55,241 nt of DNA from the NCBI GenBank assembly GCA_023251555.1, contig JAHEYN010000020.1, positions 1 to 55,241 on the forward strand, read 5' to 3'. Origin of the DNA: Bacteroidota bacterium (GTDB taxonomy: Bacteria; Bacteroidota; Bacteroidia; AKYH767-A; JAHEYN01). Below are positions 31,248 to 48,680 of the stretch, piece by piece. A model generated the notes under the pieces. The model saw only the letters and a program-made list of their open reading frames with translations, ran no database searches and was not told the DNA's origin. Position 1 is the first letter of the stretch. Each line of letters opens with the position of its first letter. Both the position numbers and the translations under genes were made by a program.

Positions 31248-32807
31248 ATGGCTAAAGAAATTTCCAAAGATCTATTCCATCTGATTAAGTCGCTGAGCAA
31301 ATCTGAAAAAAGGTTTTTTAAATTAACTGCGTCAAGGCGAACAGGCGGAGATGGTACTAATTATATAAAACTTTTTGATGCGGTTGACAGACAGAAAAAA
31401 GAATACGATGAACGTAAAATAGTGCAGCAGGAAAAAAGTATCAGGCCGGAACGGCTCGCTGATATGAAAAATCACCTGTATGAAGTTATCTTAAAGAACC
31501 TGAGTGTTTATCATACTAACAAAACACTTGAAGCGAAATTGAAAAACATGTTGCATTATATTGAGATACTCTATGAAAAAGGATTGTATGACCAATGCCG
31601 GAAATTAATAATAAAGGCAAAACAAACAGCCGGCAAACACGAAAGTCATTTATACCTGCTTCATTTGCTGGTATGGGAGATTAACTTAATGCGATCGCAA
31701 TCTTATTTCGGAACTTCCGAAAAAAACATGATAGAGATTTTTGCAGAACTGTTTGAGACAACCGAAAAATTTAAAAATGTTTATGATTATGAACATCTTG
31801 CTTCCAAACTGTTTATTAAATGGAAAAAGAAAGGGTATTCACGCACATCTTCAGACACAACGGAATATGCAAAAATTATTAACGACCCGCTTTTAAAAAA
31901 TGAAAGCAATGCTCTTTCTTATCCAGCCAGGCTGTCATTATACTTTACTTACAGTGCTTATTTCTCCCTTCAAAACGATTTTATAAAATCTTATCGCTAC
32001 GCTCAAAAAACGGTTCAGTTATTGGAAGATCACCCCCACCAGGCAGAAGAAAAAACAAAGCAATACATTGCCGCTTTGAATAATCTTATCATCGAACAAT
32101 TTAATTTAAAAAGATATGCTGAAATTCCGGTTTCAATAAAAAAATTAAGAGCTGTCTCTATAAAATCAAAAGGCATGAGAGATACGGTTTTTCTCAGCAC
32201 CAACAATTTTGAACTGGGAATGTATATAAGCACCGGGGAATTTGAAAAAGGATTAAATCTTGTAACCGACATTGAAAAGGAACTGGACAACAAAGAGGGC
32301 ATTCAAATTATGAGCAAAGAACATGAAACGATCTTATATCATAATATATTCCAGATTTATTTCGGAGCAGGTCAGTATTCAAAAGCAATCGGATATCTCA
32401 ATAAAATATTAAATGATACCACCATTGATTTAAGAAATGACATTCTTTGTTTTGCGAGAATTCTGAATCTTATCACCCATTTCGAATTAAGACACATGAA
32501 TTTGCTTGAATATGTTGTAAAGTCAACCTATTACTTTCTTAATAAAAGAAAACGGCTCTATAAATTTGAAACTTCTGTTCTTGATTTTATCAGGAAAAAA
32601 CTTCCCAAAGTTATTACTGAGAAAGAATTGATCAAAGCATTTAAAGAATTAAAAACAGAATTCGAAGAAATAACCAAAGATGCTTTTGAGAAAAAAGCGC
32701 TGGAATATTTTGACTTTATTTCCTGGCTCGAAAGTAAAATCGAGGGAAGGCCTTTTGCAGAGATTGTGAAGAAGAAAGGTGCTAAAGCTATTCCTTCACA
32801 AATTTAA
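31248..32807 (+). CDS. Unnamed all-helical repeat protein, paralogue 2
   Basis: The protein has 519 residues and is cytoplasmic by sequence. The N-terminal motif is DLFHLIKSLSKSEKRFFKL (residues 8-26), then NYIKLFDAVDRQ and LYEVILKNLSVYH. Middle helices include ILYEKGLYDQCRKLIIKAKQ. The C-terminal YFDFISWLESKIEGRPFAEI is encoded by a 70-base stretch almost identical to that of paralogue 1, although the rest is much more divergent. It is A+T-rich. Its last 20 bases overlap the 3' end of the convergent cargo gene. Function unknown. Confidence 0.8.
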   Translation: MAKEISKDLFHLIKSLSKSEKRFFKLTASRRTGGDGTNYIKLFDAVDRQKKEYDERKIVQQEKSIRPERLADMKNHLYEVILKNLSVYHTNKTLEAKLKNMLHYIEILYEKGLYDQCRKLIIKAKQTAGKHESHLYLLHLLVWEINLMRSQSYFGTSEKNMIEIFAELFETTEKFKNVYDYEHLASKLFIKWKKKGYSRTSSDTTEYAKIINDPLLKNESNALSYPARLSLYFTYSAYFSLQNDFIKSYRYAQKTVQLLEDHPHQAEEKTKQYIAALNNLIIEQFNLKRYAEIPVSIKKLRAVSIKSKGMRDTVFLSTNNFELGMYISTGEFEKGLNLVTDIEKELDNKEGIQIMSKEHETILYHNIFQIYFGAGQYSKAIGYLNKILNDTTIDLRNDILCFARILNLITHFELRHMNLLEYVVKSTYYFLNKRKRLYKFETSVLDFIRKKLPKVITEKELIKAFKELKTEFEEITKDAFEKKALEYFDFISWLESKIEGRPFAEIVKKKGAKAIPSQI

Positions 32808-35800
32808 GCTGCCTGCCTCCTGCCGTTATGAAATACATGCCGGAGGCAAGGCAGGCTGTGCTTATATGAACACACCCGTCCGCACCGGAATTTTTCACGA
32901 TAAGCCTCTTGCCCGCCAGGTCGCTGATCATAACTTCTTCCCCCGGAAGGCTTCTGACTTTCATATCATCATTAACCGGATTGGGAGAAACAGAAACAGC
33001 CGGCCTTTTTTCCCAACCGGCAACCGGAATAGTTTCTGAATAAGCAAAGCGGCCGTCGGACAACACCTGTTTCAGGCGGTAGTAGCTTATCCCTGGAAAT
33101 GGATCTTCATCAAGAAAAGAATATTCCTCCGGGACTCGGGGAACGGATTTGCCTTCAATCCTTCCTATGCCGGTAAAAACTTTTCCATCTTTGCTTTTCT
33201 CTGCAATGTAACACGAAACTGATTTCTCAAGAACAGGATGAGCCTTCCATATGAGCAATACGCCATTATAAACAACTTCTCCCTCAAACATGAGAAAGTC
33301 AACCTGCAAAGGGATCTCAGTAAAGGCAGTGATGGATCCGGGGGTGGTCAAACCTGTTCCTGAAAGTGTGTTTGTGAAAGCGTTTGAGATCCCCGACTGC
33401 AGCCATCCCCCTGAAAAATATTTCTGGAGTGCAAACGCTGACTCGTTCCCCGAAACGTCAGTATCAGCATATATACAGCTTACATCATACACAGGATTTG
33501 TGATTCCGGAAAAATCAATATTCCAGTAACGCGAGATGTAATCCCCTGTCCCGGCCGGCATAAACTGATGTATGCTATCCCTGAGATTCAGTGTAAAAAA
33601 AGCCGAGGAAAGGAATCCTGACTGAAGCATAAACGTGAAAGGGGAATATTCATCCCTGTCGCCCACGGGAAAAAAGTAAGTATTCCCCGCTGAGGGTATA
33701 TATTTCTTCACAAGTCCTGTACCTTCGCAGGCGATATAGGAAGAAGGCGTGCCTCCCGATATAACGGCATCCGAAGGAGCAGCGCTGAAAATGATATCCG
33801 ATGACCCGGCGGCAAGAACACCCTTGGAGAGAACAAGAATACTGTCAATGCCAATATTCCTTTCAAGATCAACGATGCCGCTGCCTTTGTTTATCTCGAG
33901 GAAAAAGAAAGATAATGAAGCCGATGTACCTTTGATTTTCTGATCTGACATCCCTGAGAGCCTGAAGATACGGCCGTGATCGCTGTCGTAAATTACAGAT
34001 CCGTCGGCGATTAAGTCGCCCAGGACTTCAGTTCCCGTTCCGTAATTTCTGTAGGTTGACCCGGCAGCTATGTGCAGATTTCCGCCGACAACTACCGGGG
34101 TTGAATTCCTGCAGTCATTCATAAAGTTAACAGGGTTGATGCCGCTTCCTCCTATTTCAAAGCTGCCTTTGATTCTGGGGTAATCGCCCGATCCGCTGAA
34201 AGATGAGAAGCCTGCAGTAACCCATGCTGCAGATGTAAGGTTTTCAATGGCGAGATTCGGGTAATACATTCCGCCCACAGTGCTGAGCACGGGATCTGTG
34301 GAATCTACTTTCCTGCTGATCCACCATGCAGAAGACGGAATATTGCTTATACCTCCTCCGTAATTGTCTCTCCATGCATTGCATGACGTTCCTCCCTTTG
34401 TTCTTACAAGAGAGGCATTATTCCCCATAACCCATGATGCCCCTGCATTCCATTGCAGGCTGTTAGGGCCGGAGTCGTAAAATGTTCCGTTTATGAGCAC
34501 ATCTGTGCCGGGCCCGTTATTCACAGTGATGAGGCTTCCGGGAACATCGGCATAAACAAGCGTTCCTCCGGTAGAAACAAAAAGCTGGTCGATCGTTACG
34601 GAGGTATTAATGGAAACACTGTCCCCATACCTGATAATTATTCCTGAGGAAAGATAAGAGGGAACCGTGTCGGCCGTGGTCCATGAGGAAATCCCGTCAG
34701 GTGAAACGTCCCACGTTGAAGCTGTTTCCCATTGCCCTGATGACCGGGAGCGGAAAAACCATGACACATGAGAAATCAATGCATAAGCTTTTACTGAAAG
34801 GTCGTCAATGGAAAGTCCGTGATCAAAACCCGCATCATTCTTGTCTTCCCATCGCAGCCAGAAAGAATCTCCGGAACTGACAGCTGTATTTATTGTAAAC
34901 GGGGAGACGGGGGTCATGTTAACAGGGAGATTTCCGTCAAGAGCACCTGCAGCACCTGTTTGCGGGGAAATAAAATCCAGTTGGGGAACAGATATCCATG
35001 TGCCGCCCTGTATGCCTGTGCTTCCCACACGGTACTGGAAAGAGATCTGTTGGGTCAACACATTATCGCACCTCCACTGCTCACCCGTATAGGATATTTC
35101 AAAAGAGGTAAGCGGGTAAGGAGTATTGTTGTATAAAGAAAGTCCATAATAAATATCTCCCGTCGAGGATGAAGATACGGAACCCATTGCCCTGTCTGGC
35201 GCTGAGAGGGATCCGAATCCATAACATGCTCCGGCTGTTGAAGTACCCGCCCCTGCAGTGATCAGTGATCGGGAGGAATACCATCCCGGGAGAAGGCTGT
35301 CGTCTCTCCAGGTATAAACCCCTGCTGCCGAAGGAAGGGTATTGAAATTCTGAGCATACGTGAAGGTTGCGGTATCTATAAGAATATTTCTTGATGTGTA
35401 CCATACCTGCGCCCCTGAAGACGCATTCTCTCCTCCGGAGAATAAGTAGTTTCCCAAAGGGGCAACAGACGGCGTACCTCCTGAATTAGCAGGTATTCCA
35501 AACCCATCAGTATTGGATTGAACAAAATTGATCCCGTCTGAAGAACTCCATAAAGGTGTTCCGGAAGCAGGGGAAACTCCCGCTGCCCATAGTTTCCTGA
35601 AAGCACGAACAGGAGCGGTTATCCCGCTCACCGCGGGTCCTTTTCCGAAAGCATCGGCGGAAACCACCTGCCAGCCGGACATGTCGGGCGACCTGAGCAT
35701 CTGTCCCCCCTTGACATTATTTTCTACAGTAATGTAATTACACCCGGCAAAGGAGCAAAAAGAGATGATGCCAGTGTTTGTACTGTCTCCTGTTATTAAA

Positions 35801-36495
35801 CTAACTGTTCGTCCGCACCAGCTTCCTGAATCTCCGGTAAAAGAAAAATATATCATTCCCTTGCCGGATGTTCCCGCATACAGTGTATCATTCCACACAT
35901 GCATGCATGATATTTTTTTCACGGAGGAATCTACGGCAGAAAAATCCAGTACATCCTCCCATACCGCCCCGCTCCCGTTGTACGGGGTTCTCCAGAGCCT
36001 GGCACCGTTCATATTTTCGGTACCGGCATAAAGATATGAGCCGTATATTCCCATGCAGGATGTGATGCGCACACTGGCAGCATCCCCGAAACCGTTGCTG
36101 TTGAATTGAGAAAAATTAAGTCCGTCGGATGAACGATAACATCTGGCACCGTCAGCGGTGTTATAAAAAGAAGCGAAAATGTAACCGCTCCCCGATGCAA
36201 TGGAAGAAACAGCCGCATCACCTGGAGCGAGTGCAGGAGAATAATTAATGACCTTCTTCCAGGACGTGTCTGTTATGCCGGACGGAGATCTCCATATCTC
36301 AGCCGTACCGCTGCTGCGGCTCGTCCCTGCATAAATATATCCATTGAACACATGCAGGGCGGAAACGCCTTTATTGGCGGCATCTCCGAAGCCGGAAGTT
36401 ATCACCGGGTTCCATCTGTCTGTTTGTGCGGGAATTTCTGTAACGGTGAGAAACAAAACACCCGAAAGGAAAAGCTGTTGTAAGAAGCCCTTCAT
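32788..36495 (-). CDS. T9SS cargo: large multi-domain surface protein
   Basis: The protein has 1235 residues from ATG 36495. GTG 36501 is in frame, but AGGAGG ends six bases before the ATG and directly abuts the GTG, so the ATG is the start. After the signal peptide, residues about 28-370 form a propeller (FNGYIYAGTSRSSGTAEIWRS, GSYLYAGTENMNGARLWR). Residues about 375-575 resemble a jelly-roll adhesin domain, and 575-1000 a parallel beta-helix-like stretch (SVSINTSVTIDQLFVSTGGTL). A linker and sorting domain (SVSPNPVNDDMKV ... LASGMYFITAG) end it. The longest cargo here. Confidence 0.85.
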   Translation of the reverse strand: MKGFLQQLFLSGVLFLTVTEIPAQTDRWNPVITSGFGDAANKGVSALHVFNGYIYAGTSRSSGTAEIWRSPSGITDTSWKKVINYSPALAPGDAAVSSIASGSGYIFASFYNTADGARCYRSSDGLNFSQFNSNGFGDAASVRITSCMGIYGSYLYAGTENMNGARLWRTPYNGSGAVWEDVLDFSAVDSSVKKISCMHVWNDTLYAGTSGKGMIYFSFTGDSGSWCGRTVSLITGDSTNTGIISFCSFAGCNYITVENNVKGGQMLRSPDMSGWQVVSADAFGKGPAVSGITAPVRAFRKLWAAGVSPASGTPLWSSSDGINFVQSNTDGFGIPANSGGTPSVAPLGNYLFSGGENASSGAQVWYTSRNILIDTATFTYAQNFNTLPSAAGVYTWRDDSLLPGWYSSRSLITAGAGTSTAGACYGFGSLSAPDRAMGSVSSSSTGDIYYGLSLYNNTPYPLTSFEISYTGEQWRCDNVLTQQISFQYRVGSTGIQGGTWISVPQLDFISPQTGAAGALDGNLPVNMTPVSPFTINTAVSSGDSFWLRWEDKNDAGFDHGLSIDDLSVKAYALISHVSWFFRSRSSGQWETASTWDVSPDGISSWTTADTVPSYLSSGIIIRYGDSVSINTSVTIDQLFVSTGGTLVYADVPGSLITVNNGPGTDVLINGTFYDSGPNSLQWNAGASWVMGNNASLVRTKGGTSCNAWRDNYGGGISNIPSSAWWISRKVDSTDPVLSTVGGMYYPNLAIENLTSAAWVTAGFSSFSGSGDYPRIKGSFEIGGSGINPVNFMNDCRNSTPVVVGGNLHIAAGSTYRNYGTGTEVLGDLIADGSVIYDSDHGRIFRLSGMSDQKIKGTSASLSFFFLEINKGSGIVDLERNIGIDSILVLSKGVLAAGSSDIIFSAAPSDAVISGGTPSSYIACEGTGLVKKYIPSAGNTYFFPVGDRDEYSPFTFMLQSGFLSSAFFTLNLRDSIHQFMPAGTGDYISRYWNIDFSGITNPVYDVSCIYADTDVSGNESAFALQKYFSGGWLQSGISNAFTNTLSGTGLTTPGSITAFTEIPLQVDFLMFEGEVVYNGVLLIWKAHPVLEKSVSCYIAEKSKDGKVFTGIGRIEGKSVPRVPEEYSFLDEDPFPGISYYRLKQVLSDGRFAYSETIPVAGWEKRPAVSVSPNPVNDDMKVRSLPGEEVMISDLAGKRLIVKNSGADGCVHISTACLASGMYFITAGGRQLKFVKE

Positions 36496-36501
36496 AATCA
36501 C

Positions 36502-36648: not shown

Positions 36649-38535
36649 TTAATTATGACAAAACATTTTTGCGATGGATCCTAATCCATTATCCACTTTT
36701 AAAAAATACATTCCTTCTGACAATTTCTCAATGTTGAGTTTTAATTTGTTTATTCCCGGCTTTGCTGTTGTCTGCTCTTGCATTACAACATTTCCAAGAA
36801 CATCTATTACAGAAATGTTTACCAGGGCACTTTCATTCGAATAAAATTCATAACTCAATTCTTTATCGGATGGAATAGGATAAATATTGACTGACGATTT
36901 ATTGATTTGCTTATTGTTGATTGAAATAGTTTTTGAATATGAGAAGTTACCATCATAGTCAATTTGTTTGAGACGATAATAATTTATTCCTGCCAATGGC
37001 TGTTCATCTACGAAAGAATAATTTTTTTGAGCCGTTGAGTTTCCCATACCTGCTACTTTTCCTGTTTCTTCCCATTCACTTTCACGCTCACCTTTTCTTT
37101 CTATTATGAAATAATCATTACTTATTTCGCTTGATGTAGTCCACTTCAATATTATATTTTCTTCCTTATCCCTTTCACCCGTAAAGGAAAGCAGTTTTAT
37201 GGGAAGTACCTGACAAAGAAGGGTAGCAGATCCTCCGGATCCAGACGATCCTCCTGAACTTGATGTTGGTGCTGGTGTAAATGCCAATACCCCTGAGTTT
37301 TCGGTACCTCCTGAACTAATTACCGGTGATGGGGGAGTAATTTGATTGCACCCTGCATTGCCATTAGCGTCAGTTTTAATTAAATAAAGATCAAAAGATC
37401 CGCCAAAACTATTCTTTGTATATCCGGCAATAATGTACCCGCCATCCGGAGTTTGTTGTACAGACCTTCCATAATCATCCCCTGTTCCGCCATAAGTCTG
37501 TGACCATTGAAATGTACCATCAGAAGCAGTTTTAATTAAATACACATCCCATAATCCTCCTCCCGGGCTAGTCGATATTTCACCGGCAATAATATATCCT
37601 CCATCATTGGTTTGTCGAATAGAACGCGCATACTCCCATCCTGTTCCCCCAAAGGTTTTTGTCCATTGCAAAGAGCCATTTGAAGATGCCTTGACTAAAT
37701 AAATATCATCGTATCCGCCTGCTCCTAAATTAGATGTAAAACCAGTAATAATATACCCCCCGTCATTGGTTTGCTGGGCGGAATATCCTACTTCATTATC
37801 TGGTCCTCCATAAGTTTTTGTCCATTGTACACTACCAGCGGAAGATGTCTTGACTAAATAAATATCAGCGCTATTACCGGTACCTGCTCCATATCCGTAA
37901 GCATCTGTTTCCCCAATAATAATATATCCTCCATCACTGGTTTGCTGACTATAAAACCCCTCATTCTGATATGATCCGCCAAAAGTTTTAGCCCAGCCCA
38001 GCCCTGCTCCAATGTTTCCGTCTGAAGAAGTTTTAATTAAATACATATCAGCAAATGTTCCGAAACTATATGTCATGCCGGCAATAACATATCCTCCATC
38101 GTTAGTTTTGCGAACAGATGCTACCCTTTCGGTACTGCTTCCGGAAAAAGATTTTGTCCACTGCGGAGATCCATCAGAAGCGGTCTTTACTAAATAAACA
38201 TTTGGATTAAATCCTGATAATTCCACTATGCCTGCAACAATATATCCGCCATCAGAGGTTTGCCTGGCAAAAGCAGTCCCTTCCCATTGTGTTCCCCCAT
38301 ACGTTTTTGTCCATTCAAGAGAACCAGTTGATGATATTTTGACAAGATAAAGATCTCTTAATCCCGCTCCGAAACTTTCTGTAGAACCCGAAATAATATA
38401 GCCCCCATCTGCGGTTTGGTCAACATCATAGCCTTGTTCGATACCTGCTCCGCCATAGGTTTGCTGAAAGGTTATTTGTGAATAAGATTGATTATAAATC
38501 ACAATTAAAAAAATTAAAAACAAAATGTTTTTCAT
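36649..38535 (-). CDS. T9SS cargo: QQT-DGGYII repeat propeller
   Basis: The protein has 628 residues from ATG 38535 (MKNILFLIFLIVIYNQSYSQ). The frame extends to 38577 through a dispersed repeat, which is why the inner ATG is chosen. Seven to eight repeats of about 53 residues follow, with GSLQWTKTFGG, SIRQTNDGGYIIAG and DVYLIKT as constant parts. After a Gly/Ser-rich spacer (SSGGSSGSGG) come the FnIII-like linker and a sorting domain (NIYPIPSDKELSYEFYS ... LSEGMYFLKV) that ends AKMFCHN instead of the usual KFIKQ. No Shine-Dalgarno site; the repeat hairpin lies ten bases upstream of the start. Confidence 0.87.
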   Translation of the reverse strand: MKNILFLIFLIVIYNQSYSQITFQQTYGGAGIEQGYDVDQTADGGYIISGSTESFGAGLRDLYLVKISSTGSLEWTKTYGGTQWEGTAFARQTSDGGYIVAGIVELSGFNPNVYLVKTASDGSPQWTKSFSGSSTERVASVRKTNDGGYVIAGMTYSFGTFADMYLIKTSSDGNIGAGLGWAKTFGGSYQNEGFYSQQTSDGGYIIIGETDAYGYGAGTGNSADIYLVKTSSAGSVQWTKTYGGPDNEVGYSAQQTNDGGYIITGFTSNLGAGGYDDIYLVKASSNGSLQWTKTFGGTGWEYARSIRQTNDGGYIIAGEISTSPGGGLWDVYLIKTASDGTFQWSQTYGGTGDDYGRSVQQTPDGGYIIAGYTKNSFGGSFDLYLIKTDANGNAGCNQITPPSPVISSGGTENSGVLAFTPAPTSSSGGSSGSGGSATLLCQVLPIKLLSFTGERDKEENIILKWTTSSEISNDYFIIERKGERESEWEETGKVAGMGNSTAQKNYSFVDEQPLAGINYYRLKQIDYDGNFSYSKTISINNKQINKSSVNIYPIPSDKELSYEFYSNESALVNISVIDVLGNVVMQEQTTAKPGINKLKLNIEKLSEGMYFLKVDNGLGSIAKMFCHN

Positions 38536-38545
38536 GTTTTTTTTT

Positions 38546-38614
38546 AATCCGCCTTCGCGTTCCGCTACGGCGGACAAGAGTGTCCGGGGGTTGCGCCGGG
38601 GTTAATACCAATTT
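38546..38614 (+). repeat. Dispersed double-hairpin repeat, copy B
   Basis: It carries the TCCGCC ... GGCGGA hairpin with a perfect inner match TTCGCGTTCCGCTACGGC, and a degenerate second hairpin (CCGGGGGTTGCGCCGGGG). It fills most of the gap between two cargo genes and would lie in the leader of the one at 36649-38535. Confidence 0.8.
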
Positions 38615-38641
38615 ATTAAAACTTTTGAGTTATAAGTTGTT

Positions 38642-40213
38642 TTATTGCTTTATAAATTTGTTTTGCGATTGTTGTATGCCATTATCCATTTTCAGAAAAT
38701 ACACTCCTTGTGATAAATTTTGAATATTAAGTTTTGATTTATTCATTCCTCTCTTTGCTTTTGTTTCTTCCTGCATCACAATATTCCCAAGAACATCAAT
38801 TACAGTAATATTTATTTCGGAATCCCCCTCCGTAAAAAATTCACAAATCAGTTCTCTATCAGAGGGAACAGGATAAATATTGACTGACGATTTATTGATT
38901 TGCTGATTGTTGATTGAAATGATTTTCGAATAACTAAAGTTGCCATCATAATCAACTTGTTTCAAACGATAATAATTTATTCCCCTGAGAGGATATTTAT
39001 CTGTGAAAGAATAATTTGAATTTATGTTTGTTGTTCCCGCACCTTTGACTTTGCCATATTCTTCAAATGTTTTTCCGTCTGAACCCCGCTCAAGAATATA
39101 ATAATCGTTATTGCTTTCAGTAGCTGTTTCCCATTTAAGAATTATATTATTTTTATCTCCAGGTTGGCCCGTAAAGGATAAGAATTCTACAGGTAAAACA
39201 GCCGAACACCATTCCCGGAAATCTGAATAATAAGCTGATATATTAAAATTCACCCCTGTGCCGATATATCCGCAAGTGCCGATGGAAAAACCAACAGCAG
39301 TTTCTCTTCCCGCCCCGCTGAAGTTGGTTTTTGCTGTCCACGCTCCGCTGGGGGGACTAACGGATGGGTCCCATTCCCAGAAATCGTTCTTTAACGCATT
39401 CGTATTGTCAAAGCCAGTTCCGATGTATCCTTTTGTGCCGATAGAAAAACCTATTGCGTCAACTCTTGGTGTTCCGCCAAAGCTGGCTCTTGATGCCCAA
39501 TTGCCTGTGGCCTGATCCCATTCCCAGAAATCCTGATGGAATGATCCGTCTGTTCCTAATCCGATGTATCCTTTTGTACCAATAGAAAAGCCCGTTGCGC
39601 CGTATCTTAGGCCTCCCGGATAATCTGTTTTTTGAGACCATTGGTTATAAGTAGCAGAGGCAATATCTCCATCCCACTCCCAAAAATCCTTCAGCGTTGT
39701 TCCCATACTGAGATTATTGTAACCTGTACCGATATAACCTTTTGTGCCGATGGAAAAACCAACAGCATAAGCTCTTATTGGTCCCGGCAGATTGGTTTTC
39801 TGTATCCACTGGTTATAAGTAGGGGAGGCAATATCTCCATCCCATTCCCACAAATCCTGATTGTAAAAAGGGGAATTACTCTGAAAGCCGGTTCCGATAT
39901 AACCTTTTGTACCGATGGAAAAACCAACGGCAAACCGTCTTGCTGTACCCGGGAAATTAGCTTTTTGAGCCCATGTATTAGTACCCTGATTCCATTCCCA
40001 GAAATCCTGATAATAATTCCCCAAATTATCGCACCCTGTACCAATATAACCTTTAGTGCTAATAGAAAAACCTGTTGCACCATATCTTAAACCTCCCCCA
40101 AAAGCAGTTTTTGTTGTCCATGTTTGTGCATAGCAATTTAAAGTCCCACTCTGAAACAAGTTCAAAACAAGATTTCCTGTTAACAATAAAGTTGTTATAA
40201 TAATTTTTTTCAT
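38642..40213 (-). CDS. T9SS cargo: Kelch-type propeller
   Basis: The protein has 523 residues. The signal peptide ends at about residue 29 (NCYAQ). Six to seven Kelch-like repeats of about 50 residues follow, with GFSIGTKGYIGTG, DFWEWD and W-QKTNLPG as constant parts; the DNA of the repeats is also similar, with no long identical runs. Residues about 345-445 are an FnIII-like linker (LPVEFLSFTGQPGDKNNI, YYRLKQVDYDGNFSYSK), and the end is a sorting domain (NIYPVPSDRELI ... LSQGVYFLKM, KFIKQ). Same strand as the neighbouring cargo genes. Confidence 0.88.
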   Translation of the reverse strand: MKKIIITTLLLTGNLVLNLFQSGTLNCYAQTWTTKTAFGGGLRYGATGFSISTKGYIGTGCDNLGNYYQDFWEWNQGTNTWAQKANFPGTARRFAVGFSIGTKGYIGTGFQSNSPFYNQDLWEWDGDIASPTYNQWIQKTNLPGPIRAYAVGFSIGTKGYIGTGYNNLSMGTTLKDFWEWDGDIASATYNQWSQKTDYPGGLRYGATGFSIGTKGYIGLGTDGSFHQDFWEWDQATGNWASRASFGGTPRVDAIGFSIGTKGYIGTGFDNTNALKNDFWEWDPSVSPPSGAWTAKTNFSGAGRETAVGFSIGTCGYIGTGVNFNISAYYSDFREWCSAVLPVEFLSFTGQPGDKNNIILKWETATESNNDYYILERGSDGKTFEEYGKVKGAGTTNINSNYSFTDKYPLRGINYYRLKQVDYDGNFSYSKIISINNQQINKSSVNIYPVPSDRELICEFFTEGDSEINITVIDVLGNIVMQEETKAKRGMNKSKLNIQNLSQGVYFLKMDNGIQQSQNKFIKQ

Positions 40214-40233
40214 ACTTTACTTACTCCTTTTTT

Positions 40234-42243
40234 TTACTGCTTCACAAATTTAATTTGTGATAATTCTGTTCCGTTTCCTATTCTTAAAAAGTACACCCCT
40301 TCTGATAATTTCTCAATGTTAAGTTTTAATTTGTTCACTCCTCGCTTGGCCTGCGTTTGTTCTTGCATTATAATGTTTCCAAGAACATCCATTACTGAAA
40401 CATTTATTAAAGAATTTTCATCTGAATAAAATTCGTAATTCAGTTCTTTATCGGATGGAACAGGATAGATAGTTAATGACTGATGGTTAATAGTTGATTT
40501 AATGGAAATAGTTTTTGAATATGAGAAGTTCCCGTCAAAGTCAATTTGTTTTAAACGGTAATAATTCATTCCTGCAACCGGATGCTGGTCAGAAAAAGAA
40601 TAGTTTTGTTTAGCAGTTGAATTACCTGCTCCTTTTACTTTTCCTGTTTCTTCCCATGCACTTTCCCGGATGCTGCGGTTACTCGATGCATCACCTTTTC
40701 TTTCTACTATGAAATAATCATTACTTATTTCGCTTGATGTTGTCCATTCCAATAGATTTTCATTTCCTTTCATGTATCCGCTAAAGTTGAGAATACCTAC
40801 AGGTAAAACTCCGCAGGCACTCATGTCATACTTCCCATAAAAAATATCATGCCCCCCTGCCGATACAAGATTATTTACCACACCAGGATCAGGGTTAAAA
40901 TCGGCTGTCAGGGAAAAATATCCTGTCGTATACACATTACTGCCTGTTGCATCCACGGCTATAGCATAACCTATGTCATTACCTGAAGCAGTGCTGCTTC
41001 CCATCCGTCCTGCACAAACATAATTGCCTGAAGCATCATATTTGGCTATGAAAACATCTGCCACTCCTGCAGAAACCAGATTAGGAGTACCTACCGCCAT
41101 ATCAAAATCAACTGTTCCTGTGAAATATCCTGTGATATATGTATTTCCGGAAGCATCAACAGCAATACCCTGTCCTACAGCAGTACCTCCTGTTGCTATT
41201 GATCCGGGGAAGGCGATTGCCCATATTAAGTTTCCATCAGTATCGTACCTGGCATCAAAGCAAATGTGGGCAGTACCATTAGTACCCAGCAAAGTTGTAC
41301 CGCCTGCGGAAGGGTCAAAGTCGGGCGAAATCATATCGTAATATCCTGTAATATATATAGTTCCGGAGGCAGGGTCAACTGTAAGAGCGTTAACTTGTTC
41401 AGGGCTTCCTCCTCCTATGCCTTTTGCCCACAGGTAATTTCCATTCGGATCGTATTTTGCAAAGTAAATATTATTTTGCAAAGCGGGAGAAGATGTAAGA
41501 GTGCTAACTGACCCGCTGCTCGGATCAAAGTCGGCTGAGTTATAAAAATTACCGGAAATATAAATATTCCCGGAAGCATCAAGTGCTATGCTGCAAGAGT
41601 TATCATTCCCTGCCCCCCCGACATTTTTTGCCCAGAGATAACCTCCATCGGAGTCATATTTTGCAAAGAATATATCACTGGTTGCTCCTCCGGTAGAAGA
41701 AAGATTGTTTGTAACCAAGATATCGGGGTTAAAGTCCACGGTATTCTGAAAAGTTCCTGTAACATATATATTCCCTGATACATCAAAGACGGTACTATAA
41801 CCATTATTCACCCCGCCGCTCCCGAAAGAGTTTGCCCAAAGAAACCCACCGTTAGAATTATATTTAGCCAAGAGAATCTCAGACCCTCCACCTGTTACAC
41901 AAGCATTGCCAGAACCGTCAACAGCGACACCGTAACCATAATAAGAGCCGGTAGTTCCAACCGTTTTAGCCCAAAGGTAACCTCCGGTGGGATCGTACTT
42001 GGCAAGAAACATATCATAGGTTCCACTTCCGCCAGCGGGTGTAATATTTACTGTATTACCACTCGGATCAAAATCGGCTGTGGAACGAAAGTATCCTGTA
42101 ATGTATACATTTCCGGAAGCATCATACGCGATGCTGTTGCCCTGGTCACTGCTTGTGCCTCCTATTTTATTTGCCCACTGGTAGACGGGCTGAGCGAATA
42201 ATTGCAAATTGCAAATTAAGATAAATGGAAGTAGTTTTTTCAT
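40234..42243 (-). CDS. T9SS cargo: SBBP-like propeller
   Basis: The protein has 669 residues. Signal peptide MKKLLPFILICNLQLFAQ. Repeats of the form GYLWAKNVGG, IALDASGNIYISGNF, DFDPSSG, IYFAKYD run to residue about 500, an SBBP-related propeller. The linker begins LPVGILNFSGYMKGNENLL. The sorting domain is TIYPVPSDKELNYEFYSDE to LSEGVYFLRIGNG and KFVKQ. Its first 69 bases are almost identical to those of the gene at 44950, and the C-terminal coding part resembles the cargo genes on both sides, signs of recent duplication or exchange. Confidence 0.88.
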   Translation of the reverse strand: MKKLLPFILICNLQLFAQPVYQWANKIGGTSSDQGNSIAYDASGNVYITGYFRSTADFDPSGNTVNITPAGGSGTYDMFLAKYDPTGGYLWAKTVGTTGSYYGYGVAVDGSGNACVTGGGSEILLAKYNSNGGFLWANSFGSGGVNNGYSTVFDVSGNIYVTGTFQNTVDFNPDILVTNNLSSTGGATSDIFFAKYDSDGGYLWAKNVGGAGNDNSCSIALDASGNIYISGNFYNSADFDPSSGSVSTLTSSPALQNNIYFAKYDPNGNYLWAKGIGGGSPEQVNALTVDPASGTIYITGYYDMISPDFDPSAGGTTLLGTNGTAHICFDARYDTDGNLIWAIAFPGSIATGGTAVGQGIAVDASGNTYITGYFTGTVDFDMAVGTPNLVSAGVADVFIAKYDASGNYVCAGRMGSSTASGNDIGYAIAVDATGSNVYTTGYFSLTADFNPDPGVVNNLVSAGGHDIFYGKYDMSACGVLPVGILNFSGYMKGNENLLEWTTSSEISNDYFIVERKGDASSNRSIRESAWEETGKVKGAGNSTAKQNYSFSDQHPVAGMNYYRLKQIDFDGNFSYSKTISIKSTINHQSLTIYPVPSDKELNYEFYSDENSLINVSVMDVLGNIIMQEQTQAKRGVNKLKLNIEKLSEGVYFLRIGNGTELSQIKFVKQ

Positions 42244-42258
42244 GGTTTATTTTAATCT

Positions 42259-42423
42259 TTACTGTTTAATAAATTTTGTTTGAGTATTATTCACTTTTAG
42301 AAAACATATTCCTTCTGATAAATTTTGAATATTTAGTTTTGATTTGTTTATTCCCTGCTTTGATTGTATTTGCTGCTCCATAACAATAAGCCCAAGCACA
42401 TCCATTACTGAAATATTTACTTC
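42259..42423 (-). pseudogene. Orphan T9SS sorting-domain fragment
   Basis: On the minus strand the frame reads EVNISVMDVLGLIVMEQQ, then KQGINKSKLNIQNLSEGICFLKV and TQTKFIKQ before a stop at 42259-42261. This is the last two-thirds of a type A sorting domain, closest to those at 38642 and 44950. Upstream the frame soon meets a stop (42439-42441) and has no signal peptide or body, so the rest of the gene is lost. The canonical GN after DVLG is changed to GL and YFL to CFL, as expected under relaxed selection. Confidence 0.8.
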
Positions 42424-42430
42424 ATGGGGG

Positions 42431-42598
42431 TTATTTAATCAAAGAGGTTACCAATACATTTTCATTGCCTTTAGCTTTCCGGCGGATTCTCTTTTTATTT
42501 TTTGCAGTGCGGTTGTGGGATTGTATTTTTTTTTCTGCTTCCCAATAATTGTCTCCGAATCTGTCGGAAAGCAATGGATGTACTTCAAATAAGAACAT
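42431..42598 (-). CDS. Possible small basic protein
   Basis: ATG 42598 opens a 55-residue frame (MFLFEVHPLLSDRFGDNYW ... NKKRIRRKAKGNENVL) that stops just before the orphan sorting-domain fragment. The C-terminal half is very basic. I do not recognise it. It lies between the fragment and dispersed repeat C, and could be a real small gene, a piece of the element that removed the front of the cargo gene, or chance. Confidence 0.3.
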   Translation of the reverse strand: MFLFEVHPLLSDRFGDNYWEAEKKIQSHNRTAKNKKRIRRKAKGNENVLVTSLIK

Positions 42599-42633
42599 GG
42601 TTGCCGGGTTTTAGTTATTTATAAATGCTGCTT

Positions 42634-42701
42634 AATCCGCCTTCGCGTTCCGCTACGGCGGACAAGAGGGTCCGGGAGTTGCCCCGGGTTAATACCAATT
42701 T
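42634..42701 (+). repeat. Dispersed double-hairpin repeat, copy C
   Basis: Same orientation as copy B and about 90 percent identical to it by eye, including AATCCGCCTTCGCGTTCCGC and the GTTAATACCAATTTAT end. It sits just downstream of the cargo gene at 42731. Confidence 0.8.
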
Positions 42702-42730
42702 ATTTATTTTCTCAATTATTAATAATAGAA

Positions 42731-44929
42731 TTACTTTATAATCAACTTTTGGTTATGAATTTCCTCCTGAGAACTTGCTTTGACCATATATACCCCGGGA
42801 GTTAATTTTTTGGAAAAGTCGGTGGCTATTAAAAATGTCCCGTCTATGAATGCAGGAACAATTTGTGAGTATGCTTGTCTTCCGGTCATATCAAGCACAA
42901 CGACAAGAATTTCTTCTCCATAAATTCCTGTTAAACTTATAGAAATACTGCTCCCGTCGGAAGGATTGGGAAACACTGAAAACTCTATACCGAAATCTGT
43001 TTTTACCTCCATAACATGAGAGAAAGAAAACTTCCCGTCATAATCAGTTTGTCTTAAACGATAATAAGAGTTTCCGCTCAAAGGATTTTCATCAATCGCA
43101 TCATAATTCAACACAGAGCTGCTATTGCCTGCTCCTTTAACAGTTATAACAGGTTCAAATTGCTGACCATCCCGGGATCTTTCTAATGTGAAGAACTCAT
43201 TATTCTTTTCGGAGGCAGTAGCCCAGCTTACAATAACATCATTATCAGTGAACTTTGCTTCACAATGCAAAAGATCCACAGAGAGAATTATATTTACTGA
43301 ACCTAAATAAAAATTATTAGCTAAATCTGTCAGCGTTAAATCCTTTCTATTTACCTGAGGGGTGGCAGGAGTACCACTGTTAGTGCCCGCATTGCCAACT
43401 ACACTGCCTGCTAAAGTCAACCTTAAATCATCCACATCAGAAATAGTCCCGAATCCTGTGCCTTCCATACGAAGATTATAAGTTCCTCCGGCCAAGCCAT
43501 CGGCTGTGGACAGCGTCCAGAAAGCATCATGTCTTGTAACTACAGTAGCAGCCCCGTCAGGAAAAGACACATTGCTTATCGCGGAAGCATCTGTATGCGA
43601 AATACTTGCCGTGCCACCTGCATATGGTGCTGATACAGGTGCACTGATATAAAACAGGCGGGAATTATTACTGGATGTTCCCATAGGGAATAATCCGGCT
43701 GCATTTCCATCAGCGATAGTATTTGTGTCAAACCATCTTTTGAAAGTTCCATTATACAAAAGTCCGTTTGTATAAGTCAGACTTCCTATGTTAGATACGG
43801 AGGTTCCCAAAGTAAGAGTACGGGCATTAAGATTAATATTCCCCGCACTCATTGTGATATTATTCCTGACAAGGATATCCGTTGTACTAAATGTAAGTTG
43901 CGGAGAAGCTGAAGCAGAATTCATAATAAAATTATAAAATGTAAAACTGCCGGCACCGGATAGTGTTGTTTTACCCTGAAATTCCGTACTTCCTCCTGTG
44001 GCATTCACTACGCCTGCATTTGTCCATGTTGCAGTATTTTGTACAATAATTCTTCCTCCGTTCTGGTCTATTCTGTCTCCCGCATAATTCATAGTTACAG
44101 GTCCGCTTACTGTAAAAGTACCGCCACTTATATCTATGTCGATATTACAGGTGTATGAGTGTGCTATACCCACGCATGTTACAATTCCACCTGTTACGAG
44201 CAGGTGAGGATAATCGTTAAGTCCATTGGTTGTGATTTCAAACAAAAGTTTCCCGGTTACAGTACAGGTTCCTCCTGAAATGTCGAAGGTAGCAGTGGCT
44301 GTGGTATTTGCTCCGTCTAATTGTAAGTCGCTACCGACCACCAAAGTACCCCCATCCATATCGAGTAAACTGTAGGAAGTGCCCTTATCTTTTATTAGTA
44401 AATTATCTGTAGTTATTATGCTTCCTGCTGTAAAATTCAATCTGGCACCTGTATTTATATTCAGATCATCTCCTGTTGTGATTGTGCCTCCTGTAACATT
44501 CATCACCGCATTGGCACTCAGTACCAAATCATATAATGTTCCGCCAATGGAAAAGACACCTCCACTCATATCAATCCTTGATCCCGCATCTTGTAATTGC
44601 ACGTCTCCGCTAGTTGTAATGTCTGCCTGAATAGTAAGAATACTTGTACCTCTTACTGTTATTCTGCTTGGAGAGAAAGATGAATTAACACTGATGGCAG
44701 GGTCAGCGGCAGCACCTGTGTAATTTATTCTTCTAATCACAATTGTATCTCCTGATGCCGGTAATCCTGATGACCAGTTAGCACCATTGTTCCAGTCGCT
44801 ACTTACATTCCCTGTCCAATTGTTTGTAGTTGAATAACCAATATTACAAAGCAATGTGCTGACAATTAATAATGACAAAAACAAGTTTTGTTTACTTCTT
44901 TTTATAGATGTGTACAGAAATTGGTTCAT
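42731..44929 (-). CDS. T9SS cargo: parallel beta-helix-like adhesin
   Basis: The protein has 732 residues. The signal segment is long (residues 1-33, NLFLSLLIVSTLLCNIGYS). NNWTGNVSSDWNNGANWSSG opens a region typical of autotransporter-like or G8-like beta-helix proteins, followed by short repeats (MDGGTLVVGSDLQLDGANT, ISGGTCTVTGKLLF) to residue about 400. A second beta domain, an FnIII-like linker (VDLLHCEAKFTDNDVIVSWATA) and a sorting domain (SVFPNPSDGSSISISL ... LTPGVYMVKA) follow. AGGAGG at 44939-44944 lies nine bases before the start. Probably a surface adhesin. Confidence 0.86.
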   Translation of the reverse strand: MNQFLYTSIKRSKQNLFLSLLIVSTLLCNIGYSTTNNWTGNVSSDWNNGANWSSGLPASGDTIVIRRINYTGAAADPAISVNSSFSPSRITVRGTSILTIQADITTSGDVQLQDAGSRIDMSGGVFSIGGTLYDLVLSANAVMNVTGGTITTGDDLNINTGARLNFTAGSIITTDNLLIKDKGTSYSLLDMDGGTLVVGSDLQLDGANTTATATFDISGGTCTVTGKLLFEITTNGLNDYPHLLVTGGIVTCVGIAHSYTCNIDIDISGGTFTVSGPVTMNYAGDRIDQNGGRIIVQNTATWTNAGVVNATGGSTEFQGKTTLSGAGSFTFYNFIMNSASASPQLTFSTTDILVRNNITMSAGNINLNARTLTLGTSVSNIGSLTYTNGLLYNGTFKRWFDTNTIADGNAAGLFPMGTSSNNSRLFYISAPVSAPYAGGTASISHTDASAISNVSFPDGAATVVTRHDAFWTLSTADGLAGGTYNLRMEGTGFGTISDVDDLRLTLAGSVVGNAGTNSGTPATPQVNRKDLTLTDLANNFYLGSVNIILSVDLLHCEAKFTDNDVIVSWATASEKNNEFFTLERSRDGQQFEPVITVKGAGNSSSVLNYDAIDENPLSGNSYYRLRQTDYDGKFSFSHVMEVKTDFGIEFSVFPNPSDGSSISISLTGIYGEEILVVVLDMTGRQAYSQIVPAFIDGTFLIATDFSKKLTPGVYMVKASSQEEIHNQKLIIK

Positions 44930-44949
44930 GCCTGGGGTCCTCCTGATTT

Positions 44950-46977
44950 TTACTGTTTAATGAATTTTGTTTGAGTATTATTCACATTTAAAAAATACAT
45001 TCCGTCCGGTAATCTTTCAATATCGATTTCTGATTTATTTATGCCCCGCTTTGCTTTTGTTTGTTCCTGAACTACAATATTTCCAAGCAAATCCATAACA
45101 GAAATGTTTATCATAGAATTTTCTTCCGAGTAAAATTCATAATTCAACTCCTTATCTGAGGGGATGGGATAAATACTTACTGTTGATTTATTAATTTGAT
45201 GGTTGTTGATTGAAATAGCCTTTGAATAAGTGAAGTTGCCATCGTAATCAACTTGTTTTAGGCGATAATAATTTATTCCCCTAAGAGGATTTTTATCTAT
45301 GAAAGAATATTTTGAATTTGTATTGCCTGCTCCTTTTACTTTTCCTATTGCTTCAAAATTATTTCCATCTCCACCTTGTTCAATAATGAAGTAATCATTA
45401 TTCACTTCACTTGTTGTTGTCCATTGTAAAAGATTGTTTACTCCATCATCTCTGCCAGCAAAGGAAAGTAACCCTATAGGCAATACAGCACATCCGTTAT
45501 AGCTGGCAAGAAAAGCATCAATACTTGAAGATGGAGCAGTAAAAGAAGCAGTACCGGCTCCCGGATCAAGATCGGCTGTTGCCGTAAAATATCCGGCCAC
45601 ATAATAATTACCTGAACTTCCTGCAGCTATGGCATTTCCGGCATCATTAGCTGTGCCACCTATAGTACCGGCACATTGAAATCCTCCGGTTGCGGCATCA
45701 TACTGGGCAACGAAAGCATCACCTAATCCTGCATCAGCAAGGGGATAAACTCCGGGACCCGGGTCAAAATCCATAGGAAAAAATGAACTTGACACAGAAA
45801 ATGCCCCCGTTACATAACAAGAAGTTCCGGCCGCATCTATAGCTATTCCGTTTCCCTTGTCAACCATACTCTCTCCTATTCCGAACGCCCACTGATAAGC
45901 TCCGTCGGAACTGTATTTTGCCACGAAAATGTCTTCGGTTGATATAGAAGAAATAGTAGGAGATGCACCCTGATGAAAATCAGCATTCGTCCCTTGAAAC
46001 GACCCTGTAACATAGGCACTTCCTAAAGCATCAACTGCTATTGCATATCCATAATCGTATTCAAGACTTCCTTGTCCGCCTACGTTAATAGCCCACTGGT
46101 ATGTGCCGGCAGTAGTGTATTTTCCGATAAAAATATCATCGTACAGAGCTCCTGTAGTTAGGTTAGCAGTTCCGGGACCCGGATCGGCATCAACGGATCC
46201 GATTATGTCTCCCGTGATATAAATATAATTTGCCGAAGGGTCCAGTGCTATTGCATATCCCTTATCCATACTTGACCCGCCAATATTAAATGCCCACTGG
46301 TAACTGCCAGCTGAATTATATTTAGCAACAAAAATGTCCCAGCTGGATGGAGTAAGATTGGCTGTTCCGGAACCTGGATCAAAATCGGCTGTACATGAAA
46401 ACTGTCCTGTTACATAACAATTGCCGTAAGTATCTGCACTTACTCCTTGCCCATGATTTGCGTTGGTGGCACAACCTAATTTAAAAGCCCACTGATATGC
46501 ACCGGCAGCATCGTATTTGGCTAAAAAAGCACCGGCAGTAGATGCGCTTGGTGAATTAAGAAGAGCCGTTCCGGATCCTGGATCAAAATCTACCGAATTG
46601 GCTCCTGTTCCGAAAAAATCTCCTGTAACATATACATTTCCGGAACCATCTACTGCTATGGCATTTCCTACATCATGATATGAGCTACTCGTGTTTCCTA
46701 TACGAAAAGCCCATTGATAGGCACCCACAGCATCGTACTTAGCCACATAAATATCCCTGCCCCCTGCACTGGTAAGATTAGCAGTTCCCGGACCCGGATC
46801 AAAATCGCAAACTCCCGATGTGGCCCCTGTCAGGTAGAAATTTCCTGACCCGTCTAATGCGATTCCATTAGCTTTTTGTGTGCCGGCTCCCGGAGCAAAG
46901 TCCCATCCCCACTGGTAGACGGGCTGAGCAAATGATTGCAAATTGCAAATTAAGATAAATGGAAGTAGTTTTTTCAT
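44950..46977 (-). CDS. T9SS cargo: SBBP-like propeller, paralogue of the gene at 40234
   Basis: The protein has 675 residues from ATG 46977 (MKKLLPFILICNLQSFAQ); ATG 46992 is in frame but adds nothing. GGAGA stands about ten bases upstream. Repeats alternate YQWAFKLGC, GNCYVTGQFSCTADFDPGSG and DIFVAKYNSAG, about nine times. The linker is LPIGLLSFAGRDDGVNNLL and the sorting domain SIYPIPSDKELNYEFYSEE to LPDGMYFLNV and KFIKQ. The N-terminal 23 residues differ from those of the 40234 protein at one place only. It is divergent from the helical protein gene at 47157. Confidence 0.88.
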   Translation of the reverse strand: MKKLLPFILICNLQSFAQPVYQWGWDFAPGAGTQKANGIALDGSGNFYLTGATSGVCDFDPGPGTANLTSAGGRDIYVAKYDAVGAYQWAFRIGNTSSSYHDVGNAIAVDGSGNVYVTGDFFGTGANSVDFDPGSGTALLNSPSASTAGAFLAKYDAAGAYQWAFKLGCATNANHGQGVSADTYGNCYVTGQFSCTADFDPGSGTANLTPSSWDIFVAKYNSAGSYQWAFNIGGSSMDKGYAIALDPSANYIYITGDIIGSVDADPGPGTANLTTGALYDDIFIGKYTTAGTYQWAINVGGQGSLEYDYGYAIAVDALGSAYVTGSFQGTNADFHQGASPTISSISTEDIFVAKYSSDGAYQWAFGIGESMVDKGNGIAIDAAGTSCYVTGAFSVSSSFFPMDFDPGPGVYPLADAGLGDAFVAQYDAATGGFQCAGTIGGTANDAGNAIAAGSSGNYYVAGYFTATADLDPGAGTASFTAPSSSIDAFLASYNGCAVLPIGLLSFAGRDDGVNNLLQWTTTSEVNNDYFIIEQGGDGNNFEAIGKVKGAGNTNSKYSFIDKNPLRGINYYRLKQVDYDGNFTYSKAISINNHQINKSTVSIYPIPSDKELNYEFYSEENSMINISVMDLLGNIVVQEQTKAKRGINKSEIDIERLPDGMYFLNVNNTQTKFIKQ

Positions 46978-47156
46978 AGTTTGGTTCTCCATATTTTTTA
47001 AAGCAATGGTTGTTATTTTTTGTACAAATTAAAGATAGTGATGGGGCAGATGCGATAGCAATCCAAAATTTATTAATTATCCTAATGCCGTTTTATAAAT
47101 AATTGTATATTTATGTAAATTTTGATATAAACAGACAATATTACGTTTGAAAGCCG

Positions 47157-48680
47157 ATGAAGAATTTGCCTGATTTGTTTCAACTTATCAAATCGCTGTC
47201 CATGCAGGAAAAGCGATATTTTAAATTATCATGCTCTGTTCAAAAAGGGAATAAAAATTATTTGAAGTTATTTGATGCTATTGAAAAACAGTCGCGTCAA
47301 TCAGGAGAATATGATGAGCGTATAATTCAACAAAAGGAAAGTTTCAAAAAATTGCCTAATCTGAAAAACTACCTCTATACCCTTATTTTAAAAAGCCTGG
47401 AATCTTATCATGCCAATATGAATATAGATTCAGGACTAAAAAGTTATATGCACCATGCGGCAATTCTTTTTGAAAAAGGACTGTATGAACAATGTAAAAA
47501 GGTAATAACTAAAGCAAAAGCATTGGCTGAAAAATATGAAAAACATTTACTGTTGCTGGAATTATCGGACTTTGAATTTGAACTGATTCGTGCACAGTCC
47601 TTTAAAGGAAAAACAGAAAATGACATGGAGAACTGGTATGCGCAAAGAGTGAGAGTGAATAATAAATACAGTACTGAAAAAGAATACGAACGGCTTTCTG
47701 CAAGGATGTCTATGCGAATATATAAAAAAGGCAGAACCACAAGAAGTGACACTGATTTATCGGCATATCATGATATTATTAATCATCGCTTACTTCGAAC
47801 AGAAAATAATGCGATGTCTTATCAATCATTATATCATTATTACAGGATTCAGCTGGCTTATTTTTTTGCGCTTAATGATTTTACCGCTGTATATTCTTAC
47901 AGCCAAAAATTAATAAAACTAATGGAAGCCCATCCTCATCAGATAGAAGAAGGACTGCAATTATACGTATCTGCATTAGGTAATTTGATTACTTGCCAGG
48001 CTAATCTTAAAAAGTACAAAGAAGTAGAGTTAAGTTTAAAAAAACTGAAGGAAATAAACACAAAATCAAGTTATGTAAAAAGTCAACTGTTCTATATTAC
48101 AAATAACATGAATTTAATCATGTGTATTAATACCGGTGAATTTGATAAAGGATTAAACCTGATTGCACCTATTCAAGAAGAACTAAATAAGAATACACTA
48201 TCCAAACATGCCGAAATGCCTTTGCTATATAATATTTTCTATATTTATTTTGGAGCCGGTAATTATCGTGAGGCTCGCAATTATTTAAACAAAATAATAA
48301 ATGATACAACTACTGATGTAAGAAGCGATCTTTATTGTTTTGTAAAGATTATTAACCTCATTGTTCATTTCGAATTAGGAAATGAAAATTTACTCGAATA
48401 TATTGTAAAATCAACTTACCGTTTTCTCTATAAAAGAAACCGTCTCTATAAATTTGAAACTTCTATTTTGAATTTTATCAGAAAAAAACTTCCGCACATT
48501 AAATCTGATAAAGAACTTATAATGTCATTGAAAGAATTAAAAAAAGAAATAGAGGAGGTCACGAAAGTTTCTTTTGAAGCTAAAGCCCTGGATTACTTCG
48601 ATTTTATCTCCTGGTTAGAAAGCAAAATTTCCAATAAATTATTTGCAGAAATAGTGAAAGGGAAAGCACACGCGGCATAA
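47157..48680 (+). CDS. Unnamed all-helical repeat protein, paralogue 3
   Basis: The protein has 507 residues, cytoplasmic by sequence. Motif DLFQLIKSLSMQEKRYFKL is at residues 6-24, then NYLKLFDAIEKQ and LYTLILKSLESYH. ILFEKGLYEQCKKVITKAKA matches the TPR-like helix pair of the other two. The C-terminal ALDYFDFISWLESKISNKLF keeps the family signature, but the last few codons lie in the 191-bp duplication: the TAA stop at 48678-48680 is supplied by that repeat. It may therefore have lost a few native residues. Strongly A+T-rich. Closer to paralogue 2 than to paralogue 1. Confidence 0.8.
   Translation: MKNLPDLFQLIKSLSMQEKRYFKLSCSVQKGNKNYLKLFDAIEKQSRQSGEYDERIIQQKESFKKLPNLKNYLYTLILKSLESYHANMNIDSGLKSYMHHAAILFEKGLYEQCKKVITKAKALAEKYEKHLLLLELSDFEFELIRAQSFKGKTENDMENWYAQRVRVNNKYSTEKEYERLSARMSMRIYKKGRTTRSDTDLSAYHDIINHRLLRTENNAMSYQSLYHYYRIQLAYFFALNDFTAVYSYSQKLIKLMEAHPHQIEEGLQLYVSALGNLITCQANLKKYKEVELSLKKLKEINTKSSYVKSQLFYITNNMNLIMCINTGEFDKGLNLIAPIQEELNKNTLSKHAEMPLLYNIFYIYFGAGNYREARNYLNKIINDTTTDVRSDLYCFVKIINLIVHFELGNENLLEYIVKSTYRFLYKRNRLYKFETSILNFIRKKLPHIKSDKELIMSLKELKKEIEEVTKVSFEAKALDYFDFISWLESKISNKLFAEIVKGKAHAA

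Follow-up and report, generated by a model that had tools for sequence, protein, structure and literature searches.

How do neighbouring genes with bodies of different types come to share their ends? The question is raised by a run of six co-oriented genes on the minus strand of a 55,241-nucleotide stretch of Bacteroidota DNA (contig C6, bases 1-55241; hereafter the window), taken from a genome of 2.84 Mb in 55 contigs that is 97% complete. The six genes are predicted from their sequence to encode cargo of the type IX secretion system (T9SS) with type A sorting domains, and a first-pass annotation proposed that their export signals are swapped as modules around variable bodies. In our reading of the field, T9SS sorting domains are usually viewed as tags that come with their cargo. 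Here, we find that exchange of a C-terminal module, made up of a linker and the C-terminal sorting domain (CTD), around unrelated bodies is well supported across the genome, and that the N-terminal export signal is not habitually exchanged, one case having been seen among 5,778 gene pairs. We consider it quite probable that the sorting modules form a dispersed repeat family homogenised by intragenomic gene conversion, most strongly within co-oriented cargo runs.

Searching the genome with a module profile (A1) returned 122 matches at E<=1e-5, from which 108 gene-length genes and one orphan CTD tail were kept and the 13 weakest left out. All ten modules tested from elsewhere in the genome exceed the cut-off of the NCBIfam sorting-domain model TIGR04183, the remaining modules of the 108 being assigned by profile A1 alone; start codons and putative Sec signal peptides were picked by a hydropathy heuristic. 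The 108 predicted type A cargo genes and the orphan together occupy ~252 kb of the 2.84 Mb, or ~9% of the genome. The translocon gene SprA is encoded (2714 bits), and the PorV family is represented by a best match of 384 bits and three more members above the cut-off.

Module and body genealogies differ in this genome. The nearest module lies within 25 kb for 24 of the 108 genes, against a shuffle mean of 4.0 and a maximum of 15 in 2,000 shuffles; the nearest body lies within that distance for 3 of 106 genes, against 3.9 by shuffle, and the top module partner is also the top body partner in 5 of 106. For the 93 genes with a body partner at 150 bits or more, the module of that partner stands at a median rank of 47 out of 107. 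The neighbourhood effect on modules holds at 5, 10, 25 and 50 kb, with 23 of the 24 near pairs on the same strand, and stems chiefly from shared co-oriented runs. The top CTD partner falls in the same run for 19 of 108 genes (shuffle mean 1.9), 12 of these 19 without body similarity, and the same-run effect persists without contigs C6, C32, C16 and C9 (12 of 76, against 0.9). Among pairs lacking body similarity, mean module identity is 0.524 for the 138 near pairs and 0.476 for the 3,753 far ones.

Recent tracts are found at several loci outside the window. C9_81116 and C9_85662 share 499 identical base pairs, following 100 bp with three differences, in a match that starts ~50 nt into the module and ends 99 bp beyond the stop codon; synonymous divergence (pS) is 0.07 in the module and 0.77 in the bodies, which belong to different Pfam families (SBBP/DUF7948 versus a Lipoprotein_15-type repeat). 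The part of this match beyond the stop contains, beside C9_81116, a relic made up of the final 39 codons from a gene of the BT2802-like family described below. As this relic is 95% identical to the intact gene beside C9_85662, the sequence suggests C9_85662 as the donor. C32_2328 and C32_4765, whose FG-GAP and NHL bodies are of different protein families, have diverged over the first 199 module bases and are then identical over exactly 385 bp, through the stop codon and intergenic space and into the next gene, of which the first 16 bases, counted from the ATG, are included; the last 242 bases of this tract recur at 97% in C32_227. In C16_44530/46281, a pair with related bodies, an internal conserved patch has diverged module on both sides. 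C48_30531 and C52_81487, on different contigs and with no body similarity, are 90% identical over 510 bp up to the stop codon. The control pair C49_47048/C16_60883 has diverged equally in body and module. A test for runs of synonymous identity was repeated on 15 selected pairs, using 500,000 shuffles. Of the four C32/C9 pairs, three passed Bonferroni correction for 5,778 pairs and the fourth reached 1.4e-5; C16_44530/46281 reached 7e-5. Abrupt tract ends in diverged homologous sequence, one of the features by which gene conversion was judged, occur at C9, C32 and C16_44530/46281 and are absent from the CTD pairs of the window; another, a tract genealogy unlike that of the rest of the gene, is also observed. 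The swapped unit is a DNA tract that may start mid-module and end past the stop, and no neat protein module.

The same loci bear on illegitimate fusion, by which a duplicated CTD cassette would be joined to new bodies with no conversion of existing modules. Homology between C48_30531 and C52_81487 extends from near the module start to the stop, in keeping with such a joining, and an orphan CTD tail at 42262-42432 of the window indicates that modules can detach. At C9, C32 and C16, however, the first 50-200 nt of the module are homologous but diverged ahead of the identical tract, so the recipients already had a module, and fusion appears unlikely.

Within the window, the run and its modules are arranged as follows, with genes lettered from A to E:

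32788-36501, minus strand: sixth gene of the run; its CTD scores 21.4 bits against the TIGR04183 cut-off of 23
36649-38577, minus strand: gene A, DUF5122-type cargo; nearest body C39_38268 (52%), nearest CTD that of C
38642-40213, minus strand: gene B, Kelch-like cargo; nearest body C39_39786 (43%), nearest CTD that of E
40234-42243, minus strand: gene C, SBBP cargo; nearest body C20_27341 (44%), nearest CTD that of A
42731-44929, minus strand: gene D, cargo whose CTD is divergent (32% to C) and lies outside the shared set
44950-46992, minus strand: gene E, SBBP beta-propeller cargo with a type A sorting domain; opens the six-gene run
36652-37206, minus strand: sorting module of A; near its start, 2 differences to C in a 56-column patch
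38645-39196, minus strand: sorting module of B, linker and CTD
40237-40806, minus strand: sorting module of C, linker and CTD
44953-45483, minus strand: sorting module of E, linker and CTD; nearest C31_83286 (76%), then B (73%)
42262-42432, minus strand: orphan CTD tail upstream of the start of C, a gene remnant of 59 codons without start or body; 79% to E over 161 nt

Genes A to E, five of the six window proteins, exceed the TIGR04183 cut-off, and D stands exactly at the Pfam cut-off (27 bits). In line with the first-pass annotation, the bodies are of different types (DUF5122 with 'QQT-DGGYII' at 36649, Kelch-like at 38642, SBBP at 40234 and 44950), although no Kelch model scores above its cut-off for the gene at 38642. 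Its description of the C-terminal ends as near-identical or close copies overstates their likeness: over the six pairs, the modules of A, B, C and E (~180 residues) are 58-67% identical as protein and 66-73% as DNA, with pS of 0.50 (A-C), 0.54 (A-B), 0.57 (A-E), 0.59 (B-E), 0.68 (C-E) and 0.73 (B-C). The linker and sorting motifs it quoted do occur, though the four genes do not all carry them in identical form.

Module sharing in the window is old, yet unexplained by gene descent. The nearest bodies of A, B, C and E lie on other contigs (for E, C49_45015 at 45%), and the nearest modules of these four genes are those of window neighbours or C31_83286. The modules of the nearest-body partners are at or near background, with 0.41-0.56 DNA identity to those of the window genes, the far-pair mean being 0.48. 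These data also address whole-gene tandem duplication, with bodies diverging fast and ends slowly. Plain duplicates do exist elsewhere (e.g. L269, with 59% body identity), C49_47048/C16_60883 diverges evenly, and C and E have homologous bodies (38%) with body and CTD equally saturated. Such duplication is nonetheless distinctly improbable, given that the best bodies for the window genes are on other contigs and that the C9 and C32 modules, nearly identical in part or whole, are attached to bodies of different families.

The 5' ends of C and E present a separate case:

42175-42243, minus strand: 5' end of gene C, counterpart of the gene E 5' end
46909-46977, minus strand: 5' end of gene E, signal peptide and QPVYQW; 97% to gene C

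As first reported, two of the first 69 bases differ between the gene at 42243 and that at 46977. The match begins at the ATG (in E the second ATG, another lying upstream at 46992), collapses at ~base 70 (~codon 24) and is flanked upstream by unrelated sequence. A genome search with the 69-mer finds two places only, C and E. Among the 5,778 pairs of the 108 cargo genes, in a scan that relied on heuristic starts and could miss a pair with a wrong start, C-E is the top 5' match (97%), followed at 84% by C52_81487/C52_85692, whose bodies are related and which have upstream sequence in common; the match after these stands at 62%, and the median is 35%. Of the degenerate codons for the same residue, 19 of 20 are identical in the 5' end; for the bodies the figure is 87 of 179 (binomial P 1.2e-5). 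Over the first 23 codons pS is 0.08 (1 synonymous difference in 13 sites), while the body and the sorting module stand at 0.73 and 0.68. Furthermore, the signal peptides of C and E are unlike those of their nearest body relatives, C20_27341 and C49_45015. The simplest reading is that a patch of ~70 bp was copied recently between C and E, and this is the only clearly recent exchange within the window.

Functional constraint alone might be thought to keep the ends alike. The CTD is a conserved secretion signal, nonsynonymous divergence (dN) between the window modules is low (0.21-0.31), and constraint might account for weaker cases like the C-E modules. Where the pairs are recent, it is contradicted by synonymous codons that match far above background and by identity running beyond stop codons, and the single synonymous difference in the C-E patch points the same way. 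We regard this as a very improbable account of the likeness.

A second perspective comes from related genomes. The genus is represented by the source genome (G000) alone. Using a profile built from the source genome, module matches at 1e-45 were found in 17 of 42 genomes of the order, source included, with 67 in the source and at most 8 in any other. In a tree of 206 modules, to which the source contributes 108 and six relatives 98 (98 of the 102 matches listed), 101 of the 108 own modules have their nearest relative within their own genome, a count to be read against that large own share. On this basis, acquisition of modules from relatives is not favoured. The corresponding share is 19 of 25 in G002, 6 of 15 in G005, 0 of 16 in G008, 4 of 18 in G011, 4 of 21 in G012 and 3 of 3 in G001. 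Against the wider genome collection, the module of gene C reaches at most 41% identity among the matches listed, from which records of its own genome may have been left out. Adjacent cargo pairs with no detected body similarity occur in the relatives too, with modules 81% identical on G005_C59 and 76% on G002_C3. Across the phylum, 79 loci were sampled, of which 18 have a second CTD nearby and nine match at the DNA level by 72% or more across 100 nt or more; seven body pairs were comparable, four of them related and three without similarity (two of these over a very short stretch of body, 69 and 99 aa). This sample is too thin to support a prevalence figure.

Several results weigh against homogenisation by gene conversion. 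Detectable tracts are few: over all 5,778 pairs, the run test gives 11 at p<=0.001 where 5.8 are expected, and some of these 11 are distant and otherwise without sign of exchange. C48_30531/C52_81487 is not significant (p=0.087), its score perhaps reflecting whole-module similarity. In the window, A-C reaches p=0.027 (uncorrected for six pairs), A-B 0.08 and B-E 0.53, none of which passes correction; A-E, B-C and C-E fall outside the 40 best pairs of the genome-wide test. The first-pass annotation had named equal synonymous divergence along whole genes as the result that would speak against exchange, and between the genes at 40234 and 44950 the module and body are indeed equally saturated (0.68 and 0.73), the first 23 codons (0.08) alone departing from this. 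At ~70 bp, the shared 5' patch is short for classical gene conversion.

The comparison with orthologs points towards exchange, with qualifications. Across 11 reciprocal-best body pairs, the module of the ortholog is closer than that of every unrelated-body paralog in none, compared with 36 of 100 directed comparisons among other genera, a contrast that is biased because G000 has more paralogs. After normalisation, the share of unrelated-body paralogs closer than the ortholog is 0.65 in G000 and 0.25 elsewhere; seen from the relatives' side against G000, the figures are 1 of 10 and 0.56. Tree distance places one of the 11, C48_54509, nearest its ortholog. Body and CTD similarity correlate at rho 0.10 within the genome and 0.42 between other genomes, but CTDs diverge and saturate fast, and at body identities of at least 45% any deficit in CTD identity within the genome, relative to homologs between other genomes, is not significant (p=0.19). 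This matched comparison weakens the case for an uncoupling of body and CTD unique to the source genome, which we do not claim.

Finally, the source is a metagenome bin of 55 contigs, C32 starts within a cargo gene and the exact 385-bp repeat lies inside a single 28-kb contig, so that mis-assembly is conceivable. That the tracts are an assembly artefact is nevertheless remote, as the C9 copies differ at sites near the tract start, several pairs show intermediate identity (80-91%), and comparable pairs are found in G005 and G002.

Gene conversion between dispersed modules, the reading we prefer, might proceed as follows. The linker and type A sorting domain (~550 bp, 108 gene-length copies) would act as a dispersed repeat in largely unrelated cargo genes, being the DNA that is common to cargo of different body families arranged head to tail in runs. 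Homologous recombination, which we infer to be RecA-type gene conversion, would copy tracts of a few hundred bases from module to module, mostly inside one co-oriented run, with tracts ending at arbitrary points. Modules would in this way be homogenised by neighbourhood and by genome, the bodies retaining their own genealogy. In the window, C-terminal conversions would mostly have happened long ago, the only recent event being the ~70-bp patch over the C and E signal peptides. Homogenisation may be a plain by-product of conversion. Selection may favour it as well, given that CTDs can be recognised in a species-specific manner (passages of PMC11285876) and that those of type A share one shuttle, PorV (passages of PMC12618676). 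Its selective value would lie in keeping modules compatible with a single PorV/PorU apparatus.

A dispersed repeat of ~66 bp with two predicted hairpins is also present, at 47 or more places in the genome; a first look gave 116 candidates, of which 40 were scored, and 47 copies were listed. Window copies lie at 42640-42720, 38552-38617 and 1606-1671, the first two flanking genes B and C. We considered this repeat as a mediator of exchange; of the 47 listed copies, only 10 have cargo within 500 bp, compared with 11.3% of the genome, and because the copies are probably intergenic this provides no evidence of a role. No Rfam match at the gathering threshold was obtained in the window. The TTG start and upstream part of the listed open reading frame of gene A lie inside a copy of the repeat, the likely start of this gene being the ATG at 38535 (MKN), and the start of C31_11551 likewise reads through a copy.

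A further association concerns a family of ~510-aa proteins related to BT2802, three of which are encoded in the window:

47157-48680, plus strand: BT2802-like protein, divergent to gene E, with which the cargo run opens
31248-32807, plus strand: BT2802-like protein, divergent to the cargo gene at 28709-31054
27143-28690, plus strand: BT2802-like protein, divergent to the cargo gene at 24229-27006

The genome holds 34 full-length copies. Of these, 33 are transcribed divergently from a cargo gene that lies 126-497 bp away, whereas regions up to 1 kb from cargo make up 13.4% of the genome. The remaining copy, on contig C2, stands divergent to a reading frame that looks secreted and is cut by the contig end. 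With cargo units as defined here, 33 of the 66 have such a gene alongside. Runs were delimited by gaps of less than 700 bp, so a 1.5-kb BT2802-like gene cannot fall inside one, and we make no claim on position inside or outside runs. Truncated 3' ends of such genes, relics of rearrangement, lie ~350 bp or less from a cargo gene at L305 (C9:80990-81106), L306 (C4:36682-36783) and L307 (C48:25518-25772). Among the six relatives, matches at E<=1e-15 number 0, 0, 0, 0, 1 and 2, one of the last two being partial.

Against the BT2802 family model NF058569, the window copies score 239, 205 and 182 bits, below its 550-bit cut-off, in near full-length alignments (positions 1-501, 4-501 and 4-501 of 502). 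They resemble that family in aligning along its whole length and differ from it in these lower scores, in their 34 copies and in the position of 33 of them next to T9SS cargo. We take BT2802 to be RusR. RusR is described as the regulator of ribose scavenging in Bacteroides thetaiotaomicron (passages of PMC12596196). The predicted model, of modest confidence, is an all-helical solenoid (predicted local distance difference test, pLDDT, 69.7), and a fold search with it retrieved mainly tetratricopeptide repeat and other helical-repeat proteins at low template-modelling (TM) scores; no solved structure related by sequence was found. Similarity among BT2802-like proteins correlates weakly with that among the sorting modules of the divergent cargo (Mantel rho 0.30, p 0.013; double-centred rho 0.13, p 0.004), and the correlation with cargo bodies is rho 0.05 (p 0.32). 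The BT2802-like protein is likely a locus-specific regulator. We raise more tentatively, as an idea that is itself rather doubtful, that the lineage operates a modular system of surface display, in which a dedicated divergent regulator of this kind stands at the head of half of the cargo units (33 of 66). The bodies would then be passengers that can be swapped, set between a regulator that stays in place and a tag that is homogenised. No report of the pairing of BT2802-like and cargo genes was recognised in the literature searched.

Gene conversion and concerted evolution, as in the pilin and opa genes of Neisseria, copy short tracts between paralogous segments; in contrast to those systems, the genes described here are often paralogous in the tag only. 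The TIGR04183/PF18962 type A sorting domain is contained in the shared C-terminal module, but the swapped unit adds up to ~100 residues upstream and may pass the stop codon. No report of CTD exchange between cargo genes was recognised in the full-text literature, most subscription journals being outside its coverage, and the closest case is a rearrangement in Porphyromonas gingivalis (passages of PMC5266723). This species is described there as capable of gene conversion, with rearranged gingipain and HagA domains. These, too, are T9SS surface proteins with recombined modules; they vary in adhesin and catalytic domains between strains, whereas here a sorting module is exchanged between unrelated bodies in one genome.

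If the tags are a recombining repeat family, CTD trees would be unusable for inferring the history of the cargo. Lineages could add new bodies to a tag already fitted to their own translocon, a possibility that follows from the finding, in passages of PMC11285876, that CTDs were not interchangeable between the two species tested, together with the report, in passages of PMC12618676, that the CTD set the destination of chimeric cargo. The association with BT2802-like genes may outweigh module exchange in importance, as a regulator for each cargo unit would raise the question of how Bacteroidota select surface proteins for display.

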